The translations under genes were made by a program, and so were the position numbers. A stretch of DNA of 16,786 bases from Candidatus Cloacimonadota bacterium (GTDB lineage: Bacteria; Cloacimonadota; Cloacimonadia; Cloacimonadales; TCS61). This document shows positions 7,569 to 14,716 of this stretch, one piece after another. Under the pieces are notes generated by a model that was given only the letters and a program-made list of their open reading frames with translations, had not been told where the DNA came from and did no database searches. The stretch lies in assembly GCA_030596265.1 (NCBI GenBank), contig JAUVKM010000015.1, positions 1 through 16,786 on the forward strand, given 5' to 3'. Position 1 is the stretch's first letter. The number at the start of each line of letters is the position of its first letter.

Positions 7569-7919
7569 GGGGGTGCCCTGGTTTCGACAGGGATAAAGGG
7601 GATTGCTGATGCATGCCGAGAAGATTACCTACTCGTTAATCACGGTGATAAACTAATTAAACGCAAACGATAACTTTGCATTAGCTGCTTAGTTCAGCTA
7701 CGATCCTGTTAAGCTTGGCTGTTAGGCTTGCAGTAGATCGCCATAATTAATAGCTATAAACGGCAGATGTCTATGATGTCGTTCGAAAACTTATAGGCTG
7801 GCTTTCCAGTTTGGTTTGACTGTTTCCCATCGGGAAAGTAAGATTAAAAATAGCTAAGCATGTAGATTCGGCTTTTGACTTATCTTTGGACGCGGGTTCG
7901 ATTCCCGCCACCTCCACCA
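7569..7919 (+). ncRNA. ssrA: tmRNA (one-piece), tag peptide ANDNFALAA
   Basis: tmRNA rescues stalled ribosomes and adds a degradation tag. The 5' end GGGGGTG (7569-7575) pairs with CACCTCC (7909-7915) to form the tRNA-like acceptor stem, followed by A and an encoded CCA (7917-7919). The T arm reads GGGTTCGATTCCC, and the 5' end has the usual TGCCCTGGTTTCGACAGGG block. The open reading frame is GCA at 7663 through TAG at 7690-7692 and encodes ANDNFALAA, one residue shorter than the E. coli tag ANDENYALAA and with the same ALAA protease-recognition end. It is one-piece, 351 bases. It lies just downstream of the RayT repeat cluster; no integrase or duplicated 3' end is seen beside it. Confidence 0.97.
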
Positions 7920-8045
7920 TTTGGGACTTCTCTTATCTTAGTTCCACTCAACTCATTGAAATCTAATACTTTTGTAGCGGTTAACGAAATTTCATGTTCA
8001 AAATGCTTTGTCCGTAAATAAATAGAAAATTTCGAGGAGAAGAAC

Positions 8046-8594
8046 ATGGATTATAATCCAAGTCTAGAAACTAAACGGCTGATCTTGAGAAAGATTTCCG
8101 AAGCAGATAAAATTGACTTATTTGAACTACTTACAAATTCTCAGATTGATAAGAAAATGGTTTGGAATCATTTAGATGATATGAACGAAATTACTGAGTA
8201 TTTAAATGAAATTATAGGTTCCTACCATAATAAGCAACCGAGTTGCTTTGGAATTGAACTCAAGGAAAGCGGTAAGTTGATTGGTATTATAAATCTGTTT
8301 AACTACGATGATGAATTTAAATGTGTTGAAGTTCATTATATGCTGCTTCCAAGTCATCACAGGCAAGGAATAATGACGGAAACTTTACTTAAGGTAATTG
8401 CCTTCATTTTCAACGAAACCGATATCAATAGAATTGAAGCTTTCTGCTTGAAAATGAATAGAGCAGCGGGCAAGGTTCTGGATAATGCAGGTATGCACTT
8501 AGAGGGCGTGTTGCGGGAAAAGATTTTTATTAATGATGAATTTATAGATTTGAAATTGTATTCCATTCTAAAAAGTGATATTCAATACGGTTAG
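8046..8594 (+). CDS. GNAT acetyltransferase, RimJ/RimL type
   Basis: A 182-residue acetyl-CoA-dependent N-acetyltransferase. The N terminus ETKRLILRKISEAD matches the RimJ/RimL opening. The acetyl-CoA loop is HHRQGIMTE at about 104-112, and the C-terminal NRAAGKVLDNAGM and LEGVLRE segment (138-158) is characteristic. Such enzymes acetylate protein N termini or small amines; the substrate cannot be told from sequence. GAGGAG lies 8 bases upstream of ATG 8046. It is a single-gene unit downstream of the tmRNA gene and convergent with the outer-membrane pair. Confidence 0.92.
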   Translation: MDYNPSLETKRLILRKISEADKIDLFELLTNSQIDKKMVWNHLDDMNEITEYLNEIIGSYHNKQPSCFGIELKESGKLIGIINLFNYDDEFKCVEVHYMLLPSHHRQGIMTETLLKVIAFIFNETDINRIEAFCLKMNRAAGKVLDNAGMHLEGVLREKIFINDEFIDLKLYSILKSDIQYG

Positions 8595-8752
8595 AAATTG
8601 GAGATTCCATGTAGCTTTAATAATAGCTCTTAAATATACCGATGTTTGGTGTCTATGATTATATAATATCCTAACAAGCAAAAGTAATTTTAATAGCTTA
8701 ACTGTATGTGCTTTTTCGTTGAGCTTTACCTTACTTAAATCATATTACCTAC

Positions 8753-8798
8753 ACACCTCGTGGGTCATGTCATCGCTCACGCTCAGACCCACTCGTGT
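8753..8798. repeat. GC-rich inverted repeat in the convergent intergenic region
   Basis: GTGGGTC (8760-8766) pairs perfectly with GACCCAC (8786-8792). A second outer helix pairs ACAC (8753-8756) with GTGT (8795-8798) across a small internal loop of CTC and TC. The 19-base apical loop contains CGCTCACGCTC. It stands out as GC-rich in AT-rich surroundings between two convergent genes. It could end transcription from either side, though no clean T-tract follows, or be a remnant of a dispersed repeat. Confidence 0.55.
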
Positions 8799-8866
8799 AA
8801 ACCTATTGCATTTATATGCTTCTATATTAGTGTATGCTTGGTATTAAGTTTAAATCATAAAATTAT

Positions 8867-10840
8867 TTAGATATCAAATGAAATCTGAATAAAATATGCT
8901 AAATCAAAAGACGCTCCAATCGGATGATAAATGTAATTTTCATCGAATAAATTTTGTATAATCAAACTTCCGGTAATTTTTTTATTCAAGAACTTTTTTT
9001 GTATTTTAATGTTTGTAGTTTTAATTGCTTCTAATGATGCCGTGTAAAATATTTCCTGTGAAGAAATATCATATGATTCACCTTCAATCTGATTGTAATT
9101 GCTCCATTCTGTTTTTGAGAAATAATTGAATATCATTCCGATTTCAAGATCATTAAAAAGAGAAAGATTACATTGATATGAAAATTTATTCTGAGGAATT
9201 TTTTCCCAGTTCGAAATGAAAAGATCATCACCTTTTACAGCTTTTTGATATGAGAAGAAAAAATTGTGATTAAAGTTTTGATTAATATTTTGCTTTAATC
9301 TCAAACTGATTCCAATTATCTTTCCATTAATACCTGAAATTACTTCTGTTGGAGAATCAAAGGAAAATGTCTCATCATTAAATGTGTATGATTGCTTTTC
9401 AAGATTTAAATTTTGAAAAGATCTGAATTTTCCATTTAAAGTTATATCAAAATATTTATTGTAATTACTCTTGAAAATCAAATCGTAAGTCAATTTGGAT
9501 TCACTTTGTATAGAATTTTCGAAAATGTAATCAAAGCCATTACTTTCCAACAAATTGTATCCATTTTTTGACCAATATAATAGATTTGGATTTTCTTCCG
9601 GTAAATTACTTATGTAGGAAATCGAAGATAGAATTTTATTATGATTATCAATTGTAAATATTTGGGACAATGAGGTTTTGGGAACATACTTTTTTTTATT
9701 TGTGACAATTTTTAAGCTTGCATCAATTTCAAATTTATCGTTAATAAAATATCTTGAATTGCAATAGAATTTAAATAAGAAAAAATGATCTTTATGGAGT
9801 TGATAATCTGTGTTAAGTTTATCATACTCCGCAACAACACCAATTCTATCAATTATATTTTGTTGTTCCAATTCAAAAGTTGATGTTACGATGTGCAAAT
9901 TCCAATCAAAATCGAAATCGTAAATATTTGGATATTTCTTTAATTGATTAAATGAATATTGAATAGAGGATTTTAATTTTCGCTTTGAGCCAATTATTGT
10001 TTCATTTTTGTATCCAATATTAGAAAATGTACTATAAGTTGGAATCTCTCTTCCCAAACTTTCAAGAAAAAAGGGATATTTATCAGAATAAGAAAAATGC
10101 GCATTTAATTCATGCTGGATAGTTTCTGCTCTTTTTATTATCGTTAATGATGGAGAAATTCTTTTTATCCCTGCCCATGTTTCACCATCAGTAATTGAAT
10201 ATTCATTTCTTTTTCTGAGTTTAGAATCAGAAAAGCAATGAGAATGTCCGATAAATGAAGTTATAATTTGAAAGTCTTTTACATTGAATTTATTTCGAAT
10301 GGACAAAATTGGACCTGTTTTATCAACATTTGGAGAAGAATGGTTTTCGACAGTATTGTATGGACCACCATCACCTGTCTCGCTGCCGATAACAGCATAA
10401 CCTGAATATTTATTTTTACTTTCGACACTTCTATCAGTATGAAAATGAATCATCCCACTTTCTACAAATTCCGAATTAAATAATCCCGGAACATTAAATA
10501 TTTCTACATACAAAATATCAAAAAGTGTTATTGGGAGCATATTCAAATTGTTTACATCAAATAGATTCCTGTAATATCGAACATCATCGATCTTGATTAT
10601 CCAATTTTGATTTTGATACGAAGATAATCCGTTTATACTTGCTTTCCAGGTAAATCCTTCATGAGATATAACTCTGCTGTCATCAATTAAAAGTAAGACT
10701 TCTGAAATTCTGACAATCCCGGAATTTTCTATATCATTCTTTGTAATAATCTGAGAAAAAACGATATCCGAATTAATCAAGCCGGAAATTGAAACCATCC
10801 AATAAGAAAAGAGGAATAAAAAAAAGTGTTTGATAATCAT
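8867..10840 (-). CDS. TonB-dependent-receptor-like outer-membrane protein
   Basis: A 657-residue protein with a signal peptide (about residues 1-30) and a plug-like domain at about 32-140: ITKNDIENSGIVRISEVLLL, then WIIKIDDVRYYR, NLNMLPITLFDILYVEI and a GMIHFHT end. This follows the usual plug order (SEVL, V-I-D-G, LP-x-x-x-ID-x-IEVI). The remaining ~500 residues are alternating aromatic/polar strands ending in FIQISFDI, as expected for an outer-membrane barrel. I cannot identify a clear TonB box, carboxypeptidase-like N-terminal domain or substrate. Its ATG overlaps the TGA of the upstream small barrel gene (ATGA, 10837-10840), so the two are translationally coupled and probably work together. 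It is strongly divergent from classical receptors in motif strength. Confidence 0.7.
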   Translation of the reverse strand: MIIKHFFLFLFSYWMVSISGLINSDIVFSQIITKNDIENSGIVRISEVLLLIDDSRVISHEGFTWKASINGLSSYQNQNWIIKIDDVRYYRNLFDVNNLNMLPITLFDILYVEIFNVPGLFNSEFVESGMIHFHTDRSVESKNKYSGYAVIGSETGDGGPYNTVENHSSPNVDKTGPILSIRNKFNVKDFQIITSFIGHSHCFSDSKLRKRNEYSITDGETWAGIKRISPSLTIIKRAETIQHELNAHFSYSDKYPFFLESLGREIPTYSTFSNIGYKNETIIGSKRKLKSSIQYSFNQLKKYPNIYDFDFDWNLHIVTSTFELEQQNIIDRIGVVAEYDKLNTDYQLHKDHFFLFKFYCNSRYFINDKFEIDASLKIVTNKKKYVPKTSLSQIFTIDNHNKILSSISYISNLPEENPNLLYWSKNGYNLLESNGFDYIFENSIQSESKLTYDLIFKSNYNKYFDITLNGKFRSFQNLNLEKQSYTFNDETFSFDSPTEVISGINGKIIGISLRLKQNINQNFNHNFFFSYQKAVKGDDLFISNWEKIPQNKFSYQCNLSLFNDLEIGMIFNYFSKTEWSNYNQIEGESYDISSQEIFYTASLEAIKTTNIKIQKKFLNKKITGSLIIQNLFDENYIYHPIGASFDLAYFIQISFDI

Positions 10841-11430
10841 TGAAGAAACCTTTTGATGAAAGCAGGAGTATTAATTGAATAGCTAATTCCTATAAAATAA
10901 AATGAGTGATGAATTTTATGAAAAGTGTACATTGTTGAATATTTTATTCCAGCGATAAATTTATAATTTCCAAGAAAATTGTATTTTACTTGAGAATTAA
11001 CATTTAATGAAATTTCACTTTCTGAAGAATTTTCTGAAGTGTAAATTATTTTCATTATATGATTAACAAAAGAAACAGAATTATACAACTCCACTTTTTT
11101 GAATATCGGAATGCTTTTACCCCAACCGAGAGAGATTGAAATATCTTCCAAATCTTTAGCTTTATTCTTTTTTGCTTTGTATTCTGTATATTGAAATCCG
11201 AGTTCAAAAGAACCATAATAGTATGGAACTATTGCAAATGAATTAATCGAAATACCTTTATCCCAATATTCATGATATCTGTTTTCGGTAACTTCAGAAC
11301 CAGCTTCAAATCCAAATTCTATTGTTGAGAATACTTCATTCGTTTTTGCAAAAAGTAAAACGGAACAGAAACTGAAAATATAAAAAAGCATAAAAGTCTT
11401 ATTCAAAATCATCCTCACTTCAACATTCAT
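10837..11430 (-). CDS. Small outer-membrane beta-barrel protein (unknown function)
   Basis: A 197-residue exported protein. After a hydrophobic signal peptide (NKTFMLFYIFSFCSVLLFA) the chain alternates polar and aromatic residues in short strands (FAIVPYYYGSFELGFQY, KVELYNSVSF, YFIGISYSI), typical of an 8- to 10-stranded barrel. No family is recognised. It is the first gene of a two-gene unit with the receptor-like protein. The start is uncertain: ATG 11430 has no good Shine-Dalgarno sequence, and ATG 11412 gives a cleaner signal peptide but its GTGAGG is directly adjacent. Confidence 0.6.
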   Translation of the reverse strand: MNVEVRMILNKTFMLFYIFSFCSVLLFAKTNEVFSTIEFGFEAGSEVTENRYHEYWDKGISINSFAIVPYYYGSFELGFQYTEYKAKKNKAKDLEDISISLGWGKSIPIFKKVELYNSVSFVNHIMKIIYTSENSSESEISLNVNSQVKYNFLGNYKFIAGIKYSTMYTFHKIHHSFYFIGISYSINTPAFIKRFLQ

Positions 11431-11442
11431 ACATACTTTTTT

Positions 11443-11568
11443 TTAAAATGTTAAATCTTTGGTTGTTGGATCTCGAGAGTAGTAGTAAAATTTTTCATCA
11501 GTTTTTCTTAGCTCCTTTCTATATTTGTACAAATCACTTATAAAACACAAAAATATATTCTTAAAAAA
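11443..11568 (-). pseudogene. Possible 3' remnant of a protein-coding gene
   Basis: A 41-codon stop-to-stop frame ends at TAA 11443-11445, 12 bases before the barrel gene start. Its product looks protein-like (it contains SDLYKYRKELRKTDEKF and ends SRDPTTKDLTF), but it has no ATG and no ribosome-binding site, and an in-frame TAG at 11569-11571 precedes it. It could be the tail of a decayed gene or chance; AT-rich DNA readily gives K, Y and F. Confidence 0.25.
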
Positions 11569-11584
11569 CTAGAAGAGGAAAAAT

Positions 11585-11665
11585 ATGTCAAATCTTTTTA
11601 ATGCTTAGTAATTCAACTATGAAGCCGGACTAACCACCAAAGAGTTCGGTTAAAACTTCGCTCGG
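11585..11665. other. Non-genic stretch 11431-11814: GC-richer island with broken coding-like pieces
   Basis: This 384-base gap between divergent genes has no intact gene. On the plus strand a Shine-Dalgarno-like AGAGGA precedes ATG 11585, giving MSNLFNA then two stops, with FNYEAGLTTKEFG continuing in the same frame. On the minus strand 11630-11665 reads PSEVLTELFGG and a stop. The segment near 11621-11665 is less AT-rich than its surroundings. A TTGACA on the minus strand (complement of 11586-11591) could drive the barrel pair. A TTGACG at 11736 is the best -35 candidate for the 11815 gene. I read the island as debris of an older insertion. Confidence 0.3.
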
Positions 11666-11814
11666 GTAGACAAATTATAAAATCAAAACAAATATAAATA
11701 ATACTTTTACTACACAATCAAATATATAATTATCCTTGACGAATACGAACTTGAGACTTTTAGGATTCTCAGTGAGATGGCATTGTTGTTTAGAGTAGAG
11801 TAGTTGGAGTTTTT

Positions 11815-13434
11815 ATGAGAAAAGATGACTTATTTGTTCCTGATTGGATAGCTTTTCATAAAGAAGAAATTTTTAATTCAAAATGGATAACAGTATATGA
11901 AAAAGAAGTAAGTGAGAATATAGAAGAAAAAAGTATATATTGTGCTCTAATTAAGAAAGATTTAGTTAATGAGAAATTAGAATCATCAGGATGGGATTTG
12001 ACCAAACCAGGATATCCAGCTTCAGAGACTGAATATTATGAGAATGAAAAAAGAATTTACGGATATGAGAGTTATGCACATGGAGCTGATATTCAACCAT
12101 TCATCTTTATGAGAGATATAAGAGAAGAAAATCTTTACTATCCTGAACTTTGTGAGGAATTCAGGTTAAGGTTTAATCTATATCAAGCTGACGATAAAAA
12201 TTACTACAGATATGATGAATACGGACAAAAAGATTGTGTTGCTAAATATTCTACTAATAAGATACAAATCAAATATAAGTATTTATGGGAATTTATCGGT
12301 GTTAAGCAAGTTTGTTTTGTAATTTTTTCAGAAGTATTAAGATTTTATTCAGAAAACTATGGGCTTACCAATGAAAACTATGATTTAATTGAAAAAGGAA
12401 ATACATATATTATTGATCGATATCTTCCTATTTACAGTGGTGATATTAGAAATGTTGTTTTCAGAGGAAAAAGCTATTTATTCCCAATTGACCAGGATAA
12501 CATTCCCACATTATTCGAAGCACCTAAATACATTACTTTTTTGATTGATAGAGACAAAATGGATAAAGATATTGAATTTACTTGTGACCCAAAAAAGTTA
12601 GCTAATTATTTTGGGGCTAATCCAAATGCTCCACATTATTTAACTCCTGTTTTTTTCTCAAAAGATGTATTGAAGAAATACTATGATGACCATGATAAAT
12701 TTAAAATAGATGATAGTATTATTAGATGTGATTATTGGCATTTAAAAATGGATAACGATTGTAGGAATTATGTTAATGTATTTCTTGGAGATTTAGGAAC
12801 ATGCCTCCCATACCACGAACAACAATATTGGAAAAGCTATAATATCTATTTAGAAAATGGAAAAATAAGTCCGACAAGATTTAAAAGGTCGTTTTTAGGT
12901 GAATTTACTGATAGTAATAATCCTGCTGTATTATTAAGACAAAAAACTGAAAGGCTATTAATTAAATGGGAAAAAGAAAGTAACTGGAATCTTATACTAC
13001 CATTAGAAAAAAAAGATAAATATAATTTTACAGGATTAAGAATTCCATTAAATGAAAATCAAAAGGAGTTTGATGAAATAATTTCCTTAACAGCTAAGAT
13101 ATTTGTTGATTCTTTAAATTTAAAAGGATTAAAAAAGAATATCTCAGAAGATAAATTATCTACTATTGATGAGAAACATTTAGGACAATCCATGTTTTTA
13201 TTTGAAACATATCTTCAAGAACAATCCTTCGATTTAACTGAAGAATTCTGTAAGCTCTTAAGAGATATACAATTGATAAGATCCACTGGAATAGCTCATC
13301 GAAAAGGATCCAGATACGAGAAAGCTATAAAGAGAGTAGGGATAGATGAAAGTAATTTCATAAATTCTATTTCATTAATATTCAATAAATTAATTTATTA
13401 CTTAGATGAATTATCGAAACATTTTCAACTCTAA
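11815..13434 (+). CDS. Uncharacterised protein with a C-terminal HEPN-like RX5H motif
   Basis: A 539-residue soluble protein with no signal peptide or membrane segment. I do not recognise a named family. Visible features: an N-terminal DWIAFHKEEIFNSKW region, a basic segment around 150-180 (KIQIKYKYLWEFIGVKQ), a well-formed LPYHEQQYWKSYNI block at 331-344, and PLNENQKEFDEIISLTAKI at 411-429. The C-terminal ~110 residues are helical and contain R489-x5-H495 (LIRSTGIAHRKG), the spacing used by HEPN RNases as catalytic residues. It could be a HEPN ribonuclease with a large sensor domain, possibly in defence, but this is inference. It is a lone gene; GGAG lies 7 bases before ATG 11815. It is very AT-rich. 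Confidence 0.6.
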   Translation: MRKDDLFVPDWIAFHKEEIFNSKWITVYEKEVSENIEEKSIYCALIKKDLVNEKLESSGWDLTKPGYPASETEYYENEKRIYGYESYAHGADIQPFIFMRDIREENLYYPELCEEFRLRFNLYQADDKNYYRYDEYGQKDCVAKYSTNKIQIKYKYLWEFIGVKQVCFVIFSEVLRFYSENYGLTNENYDLIEKGNTYIIDRYLPIYSGDIRNVVFRGKSYLFPIDQDNIPTLFEAPKYITFLIDRDKMDKDIEFTCDPKKLANYFGANPNAPHYLTPVFFSKDVLKKYYDDHDKFKIDDSIIRCDYWHLKMDNDCRNYVNVFLGDLGTCLPYHEQQYWKSYNIYLENGKISPTRFKRSFLGEFTDSNNPAVLLRQKTERLLIKWEKESNWNLILPLEKKDKYNFTGLRIPLNENQKEFDEIISLTAKIFVDSLNLKGLKKNISEDKLSTIDEKHLGQSMFLFETYLQEQSFDLTEEFCKLLRDIQLIRSTGIAHRKGSRYEKAIKRVGIDESNFINSISLIFNKLIYYLDELSKHFQL

Positions 13435-13447
13435 ATTATAATTTAGA
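13430..13447. repeat. Perfect 18-base palindrome across the stop codon of the HEPN-like gene
   Basis: TCTAAATTATAATTTAGA is a perfect dyad that includes the TAA at 13432-13434. It could form a weak hairpin at the end of the transcript or bind a dimeric protein. Almost pure AT, so chance is possible. Confidence 0.4.
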
Positions 13448-13613
13448 ATTAATTTAAGCAATCTTCGTTTTATAATAAGTTTTTAATACGTTTATTCTTC
13501 AATTCACTCAAATCAACTTTTCATTCGTTTTTCACAGTGCAGTCTTGAGTGTCACTTTTTACAAACCAATATTATTACAATAATAAATTATTCACATAAA
13601 AATCATCTTCATC

Positions 13614-13641
13614 TTGACATAATAAACATATCTAATCATTT
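13614..13641 (+). promoter_or_regulatory. Candidate promoter of selD
   Basis: TTGACA at 13614-13619 lies 45 bases before the selD ATG. The -10 is unclear: TCATTT (13636-13641) is at 16-base spacing, while the better-looking TCTAAT (13631-13636) is too close. Confidence 0.3.
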
Positions 13642-13663
13642 GAACCTAATTATTGGAGAATAG

Positions 13664-14716
13664 ATGAACAAAAAAGAAGATATAATTAAATTAACTAAAT
13701 ATGTTAAGGCGGCTGGCTGAGCTGGTAAGGTGAGTCCGGCGGACTTAGATATTATATTAAACGGGTTAAATTTCCCAACTTCAGATAGAACTTTAGTTGA
13801 TAGATCCGACAATGATGATTCGGGTGTTTATAAGATCACGGATGATATTGCCATAGTGCAAACTGTTGATTTTATCACACCTGTTGTTGATGATCCATAC
13901 ATATATGGACAGATAGCAGCAGCTAATAGTCTGAGCGATATCTACGCAATGGGAGCTAAGGTTGATACAGCCCTTAATATTGTTGCTTATGATAATTGTC
14001 ACTTAACTAAAGAAATATTACATGAAATTCTGCGTGGTGGAATAGATAAGGTGAGAGAAGCAGGTGGTGTTGTTCTCGGTGGACACACTATCGAAGATAT
14101 CGAGATGAAATATGGACTTTCCGTAACGGGCACTGTTCACCCTGATAAAATATTAAGAAATAATACAATAAAACCAGGCGATAAAATAATCCTTACAAAA
14201 CCTTTGGGAATGGGAGTTATAACAACTTCGATCAAAGCAGACGAAGCTCCTCAAAGTGCTATAGATAAAGCTGTTTTTCATATGAGCTACTTGAATAAGA
14301 CAGCATCAGAATTGGCAGTTGAAATCGGCGTAAATGCCATAACTGATGTAACCGGTTTTGGACTTCTGGGACATCTATTTGAAATGATAAATAAAGATAC
14401 ATCTGTGGAACTTGATTTTAATTCTGTTCCCTTTATTGAAGAAGCTTTTGAGTTAGCTGAAATCGGTTTATTCCCCGGTGGTTCTTTCCGTAATGAGCGA
14501 TATTATAAGCCACATATTAAACGCATTAATGATTCTATTGCTGAACATAAATTAATGCTGATGTATGATGCTCAAACCTCCGGTGGTCTGTTAATTTCTG
14601 TTCCAAAAGAAAGAGCGAATTTACTCTTGGATAAATTAAGATCAGCTGGAATTGAATGGGTCGCTATTATTGCTGAAGTTAATGATTCTCCGAAAAATAA
14701 TATAGTAGTAGGTTAG
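13664..14716 (+). CDS. selD: Selenophosphate synthetase, itself a selenoprotein (UGA = Sec19)
   Basis: SelD makes selenophosphate from selenide and ATP, the selenium donor for selenocysteine and selenouridine. The gene starts at ATG 13664 (GGAG 5 bases upstream) and codon 19 (13718-13720) is UGA. Around it the protein reads LTKYVKAAG-Sec-AGKVSP, matching the family's catalytic block in which E. coli has Cys17 and Lys20; here these are Sec19 and Lys22. Reading through gives 350 residues, the normal length. Later motifs are also typical: DDSGVY near 51-56, QTVDFITPVVDDPY, GQIAAANSLSDIYAMG, VLGGHTIED and DVTGFGLLGH. A start at GTG 13730 would remove the active-site residue and is rejected. The organism must therefore carry selA, selB and selC elsewhere. 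No other selenium gene lies in this window. Confidence 0.95.
13718..13747 (+). promoter_or_regulatory. Bacterial SECIS element with recoded UGA in selD
   Basis: Ten bases after the UGA, TGAGTCC (13731-13737) pairs with GGACTTA (13741-13747), seven pairs including one G-U, around a GGC loop. The loop begins with G and lies 17 bases after the UGA, within the usual range for bacterial SECIS hairpins bound by SelB. The fold is read by eye. Confidence 0.75.

Follow-up and report, generated by a model that had tools for sequence, protein, structure and literature searches.

The selD gene in the 16,786-nt stretch of Cloacimonadota DNA analyzed here (the window) is most probably an ordinary selenide, water dikinase gene whose catalytic residue is selenocysteine (Sec), inserted at an in-frame UGA (13718-13720) under the direction of a SECIS hairpin. 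We put the probability of this reading at about 97%. We observed directly that the UGA is present and conserved, that the hairpin is present and under selection, and that the protein is conserved upstream of the UGA; genes for Sec synthesis and insertion were likewise observed in related genomes. From these, we infer that Sec is inserted at residue 19.

Reading frame, UGA codon and surroundings of selD

In the NCBIfam profile search, the frame 13664-14716 was assigned to selD by TIGR00476 (362.4 bits; cut-off 125), and it also passed NF002098 (303.5 versus a cut-off of 299). The Pfam domains AIRS (PF00586) and AIRS_C (PF02769) were both found over cut-off. The frame runs from ATG 13664 to the TAG at 14714-14716 and is open throughout apart from the UGA at codon 19. 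According to the initial annotation, this UGA stands in LTKYVKAAG-x-AGK at the catalytic Cys/Sec position. Direct reading and alignment agreed with this claim. Residue 19 of the product aligned with the Cys of 2yye, the best-matching solved SelD, and it lies in AAG-U-AGK, followed by the conserved Lys. This Lys, which comes after the catalytic Cys/Sec of SelD, has a functional role.

Table 1. Features of the selD locus (positions in the window)
Feature	Position	Strand	Details
Shine-Dalgarno-like GGAGA 5' of the true start	13655..13659	+	Read from the sequence
selD, selenide, water dikinase (selenophosphate synthetase)	13664..14716	+	TIGR00476, PF00586, PF02769 and translation; 350 residues, Sec at 19
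UGA codon 19, read as selenocysteine	13718..13720	+	Context LTKYVKAAG-U-AGK; catalytic Cys/Sec position
Shortened 328-residue ORF of ordinary callers, GTG start	13730..14716	+	Longest plain ORF
Bacterial SECIS hairpin (predicted)	13731..13747	+	7 bp, 13731-13737 / 13741-13747; loop GGC 13738-13740

We aligned Sec- and Cys-type SelD loci, as had been proposed with the initial annotation. The set comprised 79 distinct loci from the best 80 of 89 relatives, and 80 loci with the window added. The catalytic codon was TGA in 69 of the 80, window included, and TGT or TGC in the other 11. In the close group, i.e. the window and 12 loci (L001-L011 and L013) named Cloacimonadota, Cloacimonetes, Tenebribacter or Delongbacteria, TGA was found in 13 of 13 rows. 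Close relatives with a plain stop and a different start, which would speak against Sec, were therefore not encountered: all 12 had UGA at the same codon.

It had also been claimed that an ordinary caller would start selD 66 bases too late. Indeed, the mechanical ORF begins at GTG 13730, which is 66 bases 3' of ATG 13664, and leaves out codons that are conserved as protein. In the Cloacimonadota/Delongbacteria group, codons 1-18 had 82% protein identity to the window, and 58 of the 165 codons with a kept residue were silently different. Comparatively, from codon 23 on the identity was 78%, and 1245 of 3037 such codons were silently different. As the protein is kept while silent sites differ, much as downstream, codons 1-18 must be evolving as translated coding sequence. 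The GGAGA motif precedes the selD start in eight of the 12 relatives (L001-L007 and L013) and was not seen in L008-L011.

Further upstream, a tmRNA gene lies at 7569-7919. About 5.7 kb (7922-13607) separate it from the stretch before selD. The matching gap is about 110 bases in L001 (9835-9944), about 1.1 kb in L002 and 6.1 kb in L005, and the place beside ssrA looks like a variable insertion place. A blastn comparison of 7781-8045 with the window found no repeat longer than 16 bases. A minus-strand block of two genes (8850-11434; 657 and 197 residues) had no Pfam match. It was 97% identical to L013:2495-5079, whereas selD and its downstream flank were only 84-91% identical; this contrast may point to a mobile block or to an exchange in recent times. 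Upstream of selD, neither NCBIfam nor Pfam gave a match (E <= 0.001) for a 539-residue ORF (11815-13434). A scan of viral contigs found no relative.

The hairpin downstream of the UGA

The loop of the predicted SECIS begins 17 nt after the UGA. A published model of the bacterial SECIS gives a loop of 3-9 nt, a stem of 4-16 bp, a G at loop position 1 or 2, a spacing of 16-37 nt and a minimum free energy of <= -7.5 kcal/mol (PMC13188914). The selD hairpin lies within the four geometric ranges, with a 3-nt loop, a 7-bp stem, G as the first loop base and the 17-nt spacing. Its energy varied with the length folded: -6.4 kcal/mol for the 17-nt hairpin alone and -8.5 kcal/mol when the 40 nt 3' of the UGA were folded. 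Compared with dinucleotide-shuffled sequences, the 45-nt stretch 13716-13760 had z = -0.37, and 66 of 200 shuffles folded as well; its minimum-energy fold was another one, and the 7-bp hairpin was the centroid only. The 61-nt stretch 13700-13760 had z = -2.03 (10 of 200 shuffles as good), with the hairpin as neither the minimum-energy nor the centroid fold. By folding energy alone the hairpin is unremarkable, and longer or other stretches can favour a different fold. When the 40 nt after the UGA were folded in each close row, nine of the 13, window included, had it within their minimum-energy fold, and a different fold was obtained in L002, L006, L007 and L010.

We also compared the hairpin with 200 synonymous recodings of the same peptide, drawn from the gene's own codon usage. 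None of them matched it (-6.4 versus -0.3 +/- 0.8 kcal/mol). This recoding test gave P <= 0.05 in 49 of the 69 UGA loci and in 4 of the 11 Cys loci. In a scan of 345 overlapping six-codon segments of selD, codons 24-29 ranked first, with the fewest silent changes relative to expectation (2, versus 26.9 predicted by the remainder of selD). The segment that makes up the hairpin itself, codons 23-28, ranked second (11 silent changes versus 30.9 expected).

In the close group (13 rows), standard pairs filled 97.8% of the pair cells, and none of the seven pairs changed on both sides, so these rows alone give no covariation. A wider set of 44 rows (39 distinct) consisted of the 13 close rows and 31 others, mostly Campylobacterota and including two Bacillota (L067 and L078) that were picked for a hairpin at the same place. 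In this set, four of the seven pairs changed on both sides (25 cells). The covariation score was 0.411 versus 0.250 after shuffling; none of 500 shuffles scored as high, and the slid maximum was 0.238. The numbers of pairs changed on both sides and of pair types were not exceptional, since 74 and 115 of 500 shuffles, respectively, did as well. Covariation appears only with the Campylobacterota and the two Bacillota rows added. Of the 69 UGA rows, 25 stood outside the set. In 21 of these the best hairpin lay 32-40 nt from the UGA; in the other four it lay at 16-17 nt (L056, L064) or at 20 nt (L053, L066).

As the UGA is present in 13 of 13 rows, the silent changes are fewest, relative to expectation, at this place and the wider set covaries, the hairpin is more than a product of chance. 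In the initial annotation, a hairpin of 7 bp closed by a GGC loop had been proposed in SECIS position; geometry, recoding, silent-site conservation and the wider-set covariation support it. An Rfam search of the window at gathering cut-offs returned the tmRNA only. A permissive search of 13600-14000 returned four matches (E 0.56 to 5), none of which belonged to a SECIS family.

Across the 69 UGA-type SelD loci, the best SECIS-like hairpins mostly occurred at two distances from the UGA. The loop lay at 16-17 nt in Cloacimonadota, Campylobacterota and some Bacillota, and at about 32-33 nt in, among others, Clostridia, Halanaerobiales, Chloroflexi, Planctomycetota and Verrucomicrobia.

Selenocysteine machinery and other UGA-containing genes in relatives

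Twelve related draft genomes (G001-G012) were reached via related selD loci and were compared with 14 control genomes. Genes over cut-off were found for selC (Rfam) in 9, for selB in 9 and for selA in 11 of the 12 genomes; the same cut-offs gave 5, 2 and 1 in the controls. All three were over cut-off in seven genomes (G001-G006 and G011). Among the remaining five, G012 had selC, selB and a selA fragment at a contig edge; G010 had selC, selA and a partial selB; G009 had selB and selA, with selC over cut-off absent; and G007 and G008 had selA and partial selB matches. ARAGORN read the anticodon UCA (TCA) in all nine tRNA-Sec genes over cut-off, and it read the best selC matches of the other three genomes as Ser or Leu tRNAs. 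In seven genomes, selC and selB were about 155 bases apart on one contig. The initial annotation had inferred a full Sec decoding system from the gene; a relative lacking selA, selB and selC altogether, which would speak against it, was not encountered among the 12. By way of these relatives, the source genome presumably possesses the Sec machinery as well.

In the proposed mechanism, translation would start at ATG 13664, a SelB/Sec-tRNA-Sec complex held by the hairpin would insert Sec at the UGA, and translation would then continue to the terminal TAG. The predicted SelD product would make selenophosphate, which SelA would use for Sec-tRNA-Sec. SelD would thus help to make its own active residue, because SelA turns its selenophosphate into Sec-tRNA-Sec. 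YbbB (selenouridine synthase) was over cut-off in 9 of the 12 genomes, and in these relatives SelD probably also supplies tRNA 2-selenouridine.

Several other families had in-frame TGA codons in the related genomes. Fdh-alpha had one in 2 of 17 matches, at CARL-U-HS; the G002 match was over cut-off, and that of G012 was a contig-end piece below cut-off. FlpD, which we take to correspond to FrhD, had an in-frame TGA in 17 of 26 matches, in six genomes. Among the 12 FlpD loci that were read, nine had TGA exactly where the other three have Cys, in G-(U/C)-HPGDCHY. The peroxiredoxin family (AhpC-TSA) had an in-frame TGA in 7 of 50 matches; six of the seven passed the cut-off and were spread over five genomes, and the two loci that were read showed PGDFTFV-U. 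FdhA, FrhD and peroxiredoxin are on a published list of bacterial selenoproteins (PMC1794560). No convincing UGA case came from TusA or thioredoxin. None of the 18 TusA matches had an internal stop; three low-scoring thioredoxin matches had in-frame stops (TAG in G008, and TGA plus TAG in G002 and G003) and perhaps run past the gene end. GrdA and GrdB had no match in the 12 genomes or in the controls, so their absence is not shown. Fe-S_biosyn (HesB-like) was matched in none of the 12 genomes and in 9 of the 14 controls.

G006, the genome of locus L006, had selA, selB, selC and ybbB all over cut-off, and no UGA-containing match in the eight other families searched (GrdA, GrdB, Fdh-alpha, FlpD, AhpC-TSA, Fe-S_biosyn, thioredoxin and TusA). 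It is conceivable, but rather unlikely, that in some Cloacimonadota (e.g. G006 and perhaps G003) a Sec-containing SelD is the sole or nearly the sole selenoprotein. The apparatus would then serve its own feeder enzyme, and tRNA selenouridine would be its real output. A SelD-only state is on record in several YbbB-containing bacteria (PMC1794560) and in Helicobacter mustelae (PMC4607533).

Alternative readings, known systems and database annotation

We listed the best 120 of 7998 scored protein relatives. The Sec position is missing from 116 of these: 22 start at the residue matching GTG 13730 and 94 further downstream. Together with the mechanical ORF that begins at GTG 13730, these entries would fit a UGA that is a genuine stop, with translation starting at GTG 13730 or downstream and giving a SelD without the N-terminal catalytic loop. 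However, codons 1-18 are conserved as protein, the GGAGA stands before 13664, and the UGA is kept in all 13 close rows though it is one change away from a Cys codon. In addition, GTG 13730 runs into the SECIS stem at its 5' edge, and visual inspection showed no good ribosome-binding site for it. We consider a genuine stop highly improbable. It is less probable still that selD is a pseudogene in decay, interrupted by a random nonsense mutation. Such a gene could contain one in-frame stop, as selD does, but the same UGA recurs in 69 of the 80 loci, across several phyla, and the remaining 11 have a Cys codon; apart from the UGA, the frame is open and conserved.

The other four of the best 120 entries (P0003, P0007, P0051 and P0072) show Trp at the Sec position, as would be expected if UGA encoded tryptophan through a code-4-like reassignment. 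These four proteins were probably predicted under genetic code 4. A count over 13 genes of the window gave 44 TGG codons for Trp, and two of the genes end in TGA; the missing internal TGA in other window genes proves nothing, because these ORFs follow the standard code by construction. At the same place, homologues from beyond the close group carry either UGA or a Cys codon, and tRNA-Sec(UCA), SelA and SelB are present in relatives. On the TGG usage, the TGA stops, the UGA/Cys homologues and the Sec machinery of relatives, we rejected the tryptophan reading, which has hardly any likelihood left. Moreover, a SelD with Trp would be without the catalytic Sec/Cys. Sec at UGA codon 19 remains our preferred reading.

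It is well established that SelB, acting at a SECIS, can place Sec at the catalytic position of SelD. FdhA and SelD have been described as the most widespread bacterial selenoproteins (PMC1794560), SelD has been ranked second among them (PMC13188914), and Sec is encoded by 19% of the SelD genes in a prokaryote reference set, always at this position (PMC4561486). Sec-type SelD has thus long been known and is widespread in bacteria; the new elements here are the Cloacimonadota example, from a phylum that has received little study, and the annotation correction. The gene resembles other Sec-containing SelD/SPS2 genes in its family model, its N-terminal catalytic Sec, the SECIS just after the UGA and an annotation cut at the UGA. 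It differs only in the phylum and the exact hairpin sequence, and we saw no difference in mechanism. For the SelD SECIS of Campylobacterota, a short hairpin a few nucleotides after the UGA, an invariant loop G and pair covariation have been reported (Cravedi et al. 2015, PMC4607533). In our alignment it is in the same register as that of Cloacimonadota, with the loop at 16-17 nt, whereas the stems are often GGGTC(C/T) in Campylobacterota and mostly (A/G)AGTCC in Cloacimonadota.

Cys-type SelD (e.g. Sulfuricurvum L015 and Aliarcobacter vitoriensis L032), which made up 11 of the 80 loci, shares the family and the residue position and has a Cys codon for UGA. Of the four that passed the recoding test, three, from Arcobacter, Aliarcobacter and Poseidonibacter (L019, L032 and L035), have a hairpin at the distance seen in their UGA-type relatives. 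It is a probable remnant after a Sec-to-Cys change; remnants of this kind have been reported in other families (PMC1794560).

Sec coding in Cloacimonetes is already in print via tRNA-Sec (PMC5330540, citing Mukai et al. 2016). That published passage shares with our case the Sec coding in the phylum and concerns the tRNA, not selD. Our literature search, made under the Cloacimonadota/Cloacimonetes name (not WWE1) and covering few subscription papers, found no discussion of selD in Cloacimonadota.

Selenoprotein genes have been reported to be usually misannotated (PMC4561486). The annotation error corrected here dominates the database rows for selD. Scoring of selenium use in Cloacimonadota from protein catalogues would encounter an apparently inactive SelD, because the entries start past the catalytic residue or show Trp. 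No general idea about recoding is changed by our results. They do link the Sec trait, together with several known selenoprotein families, to relatives within the phylum. A lineage-wide SelD-only case, if true, would make the sole-selenoprotein reading testable.
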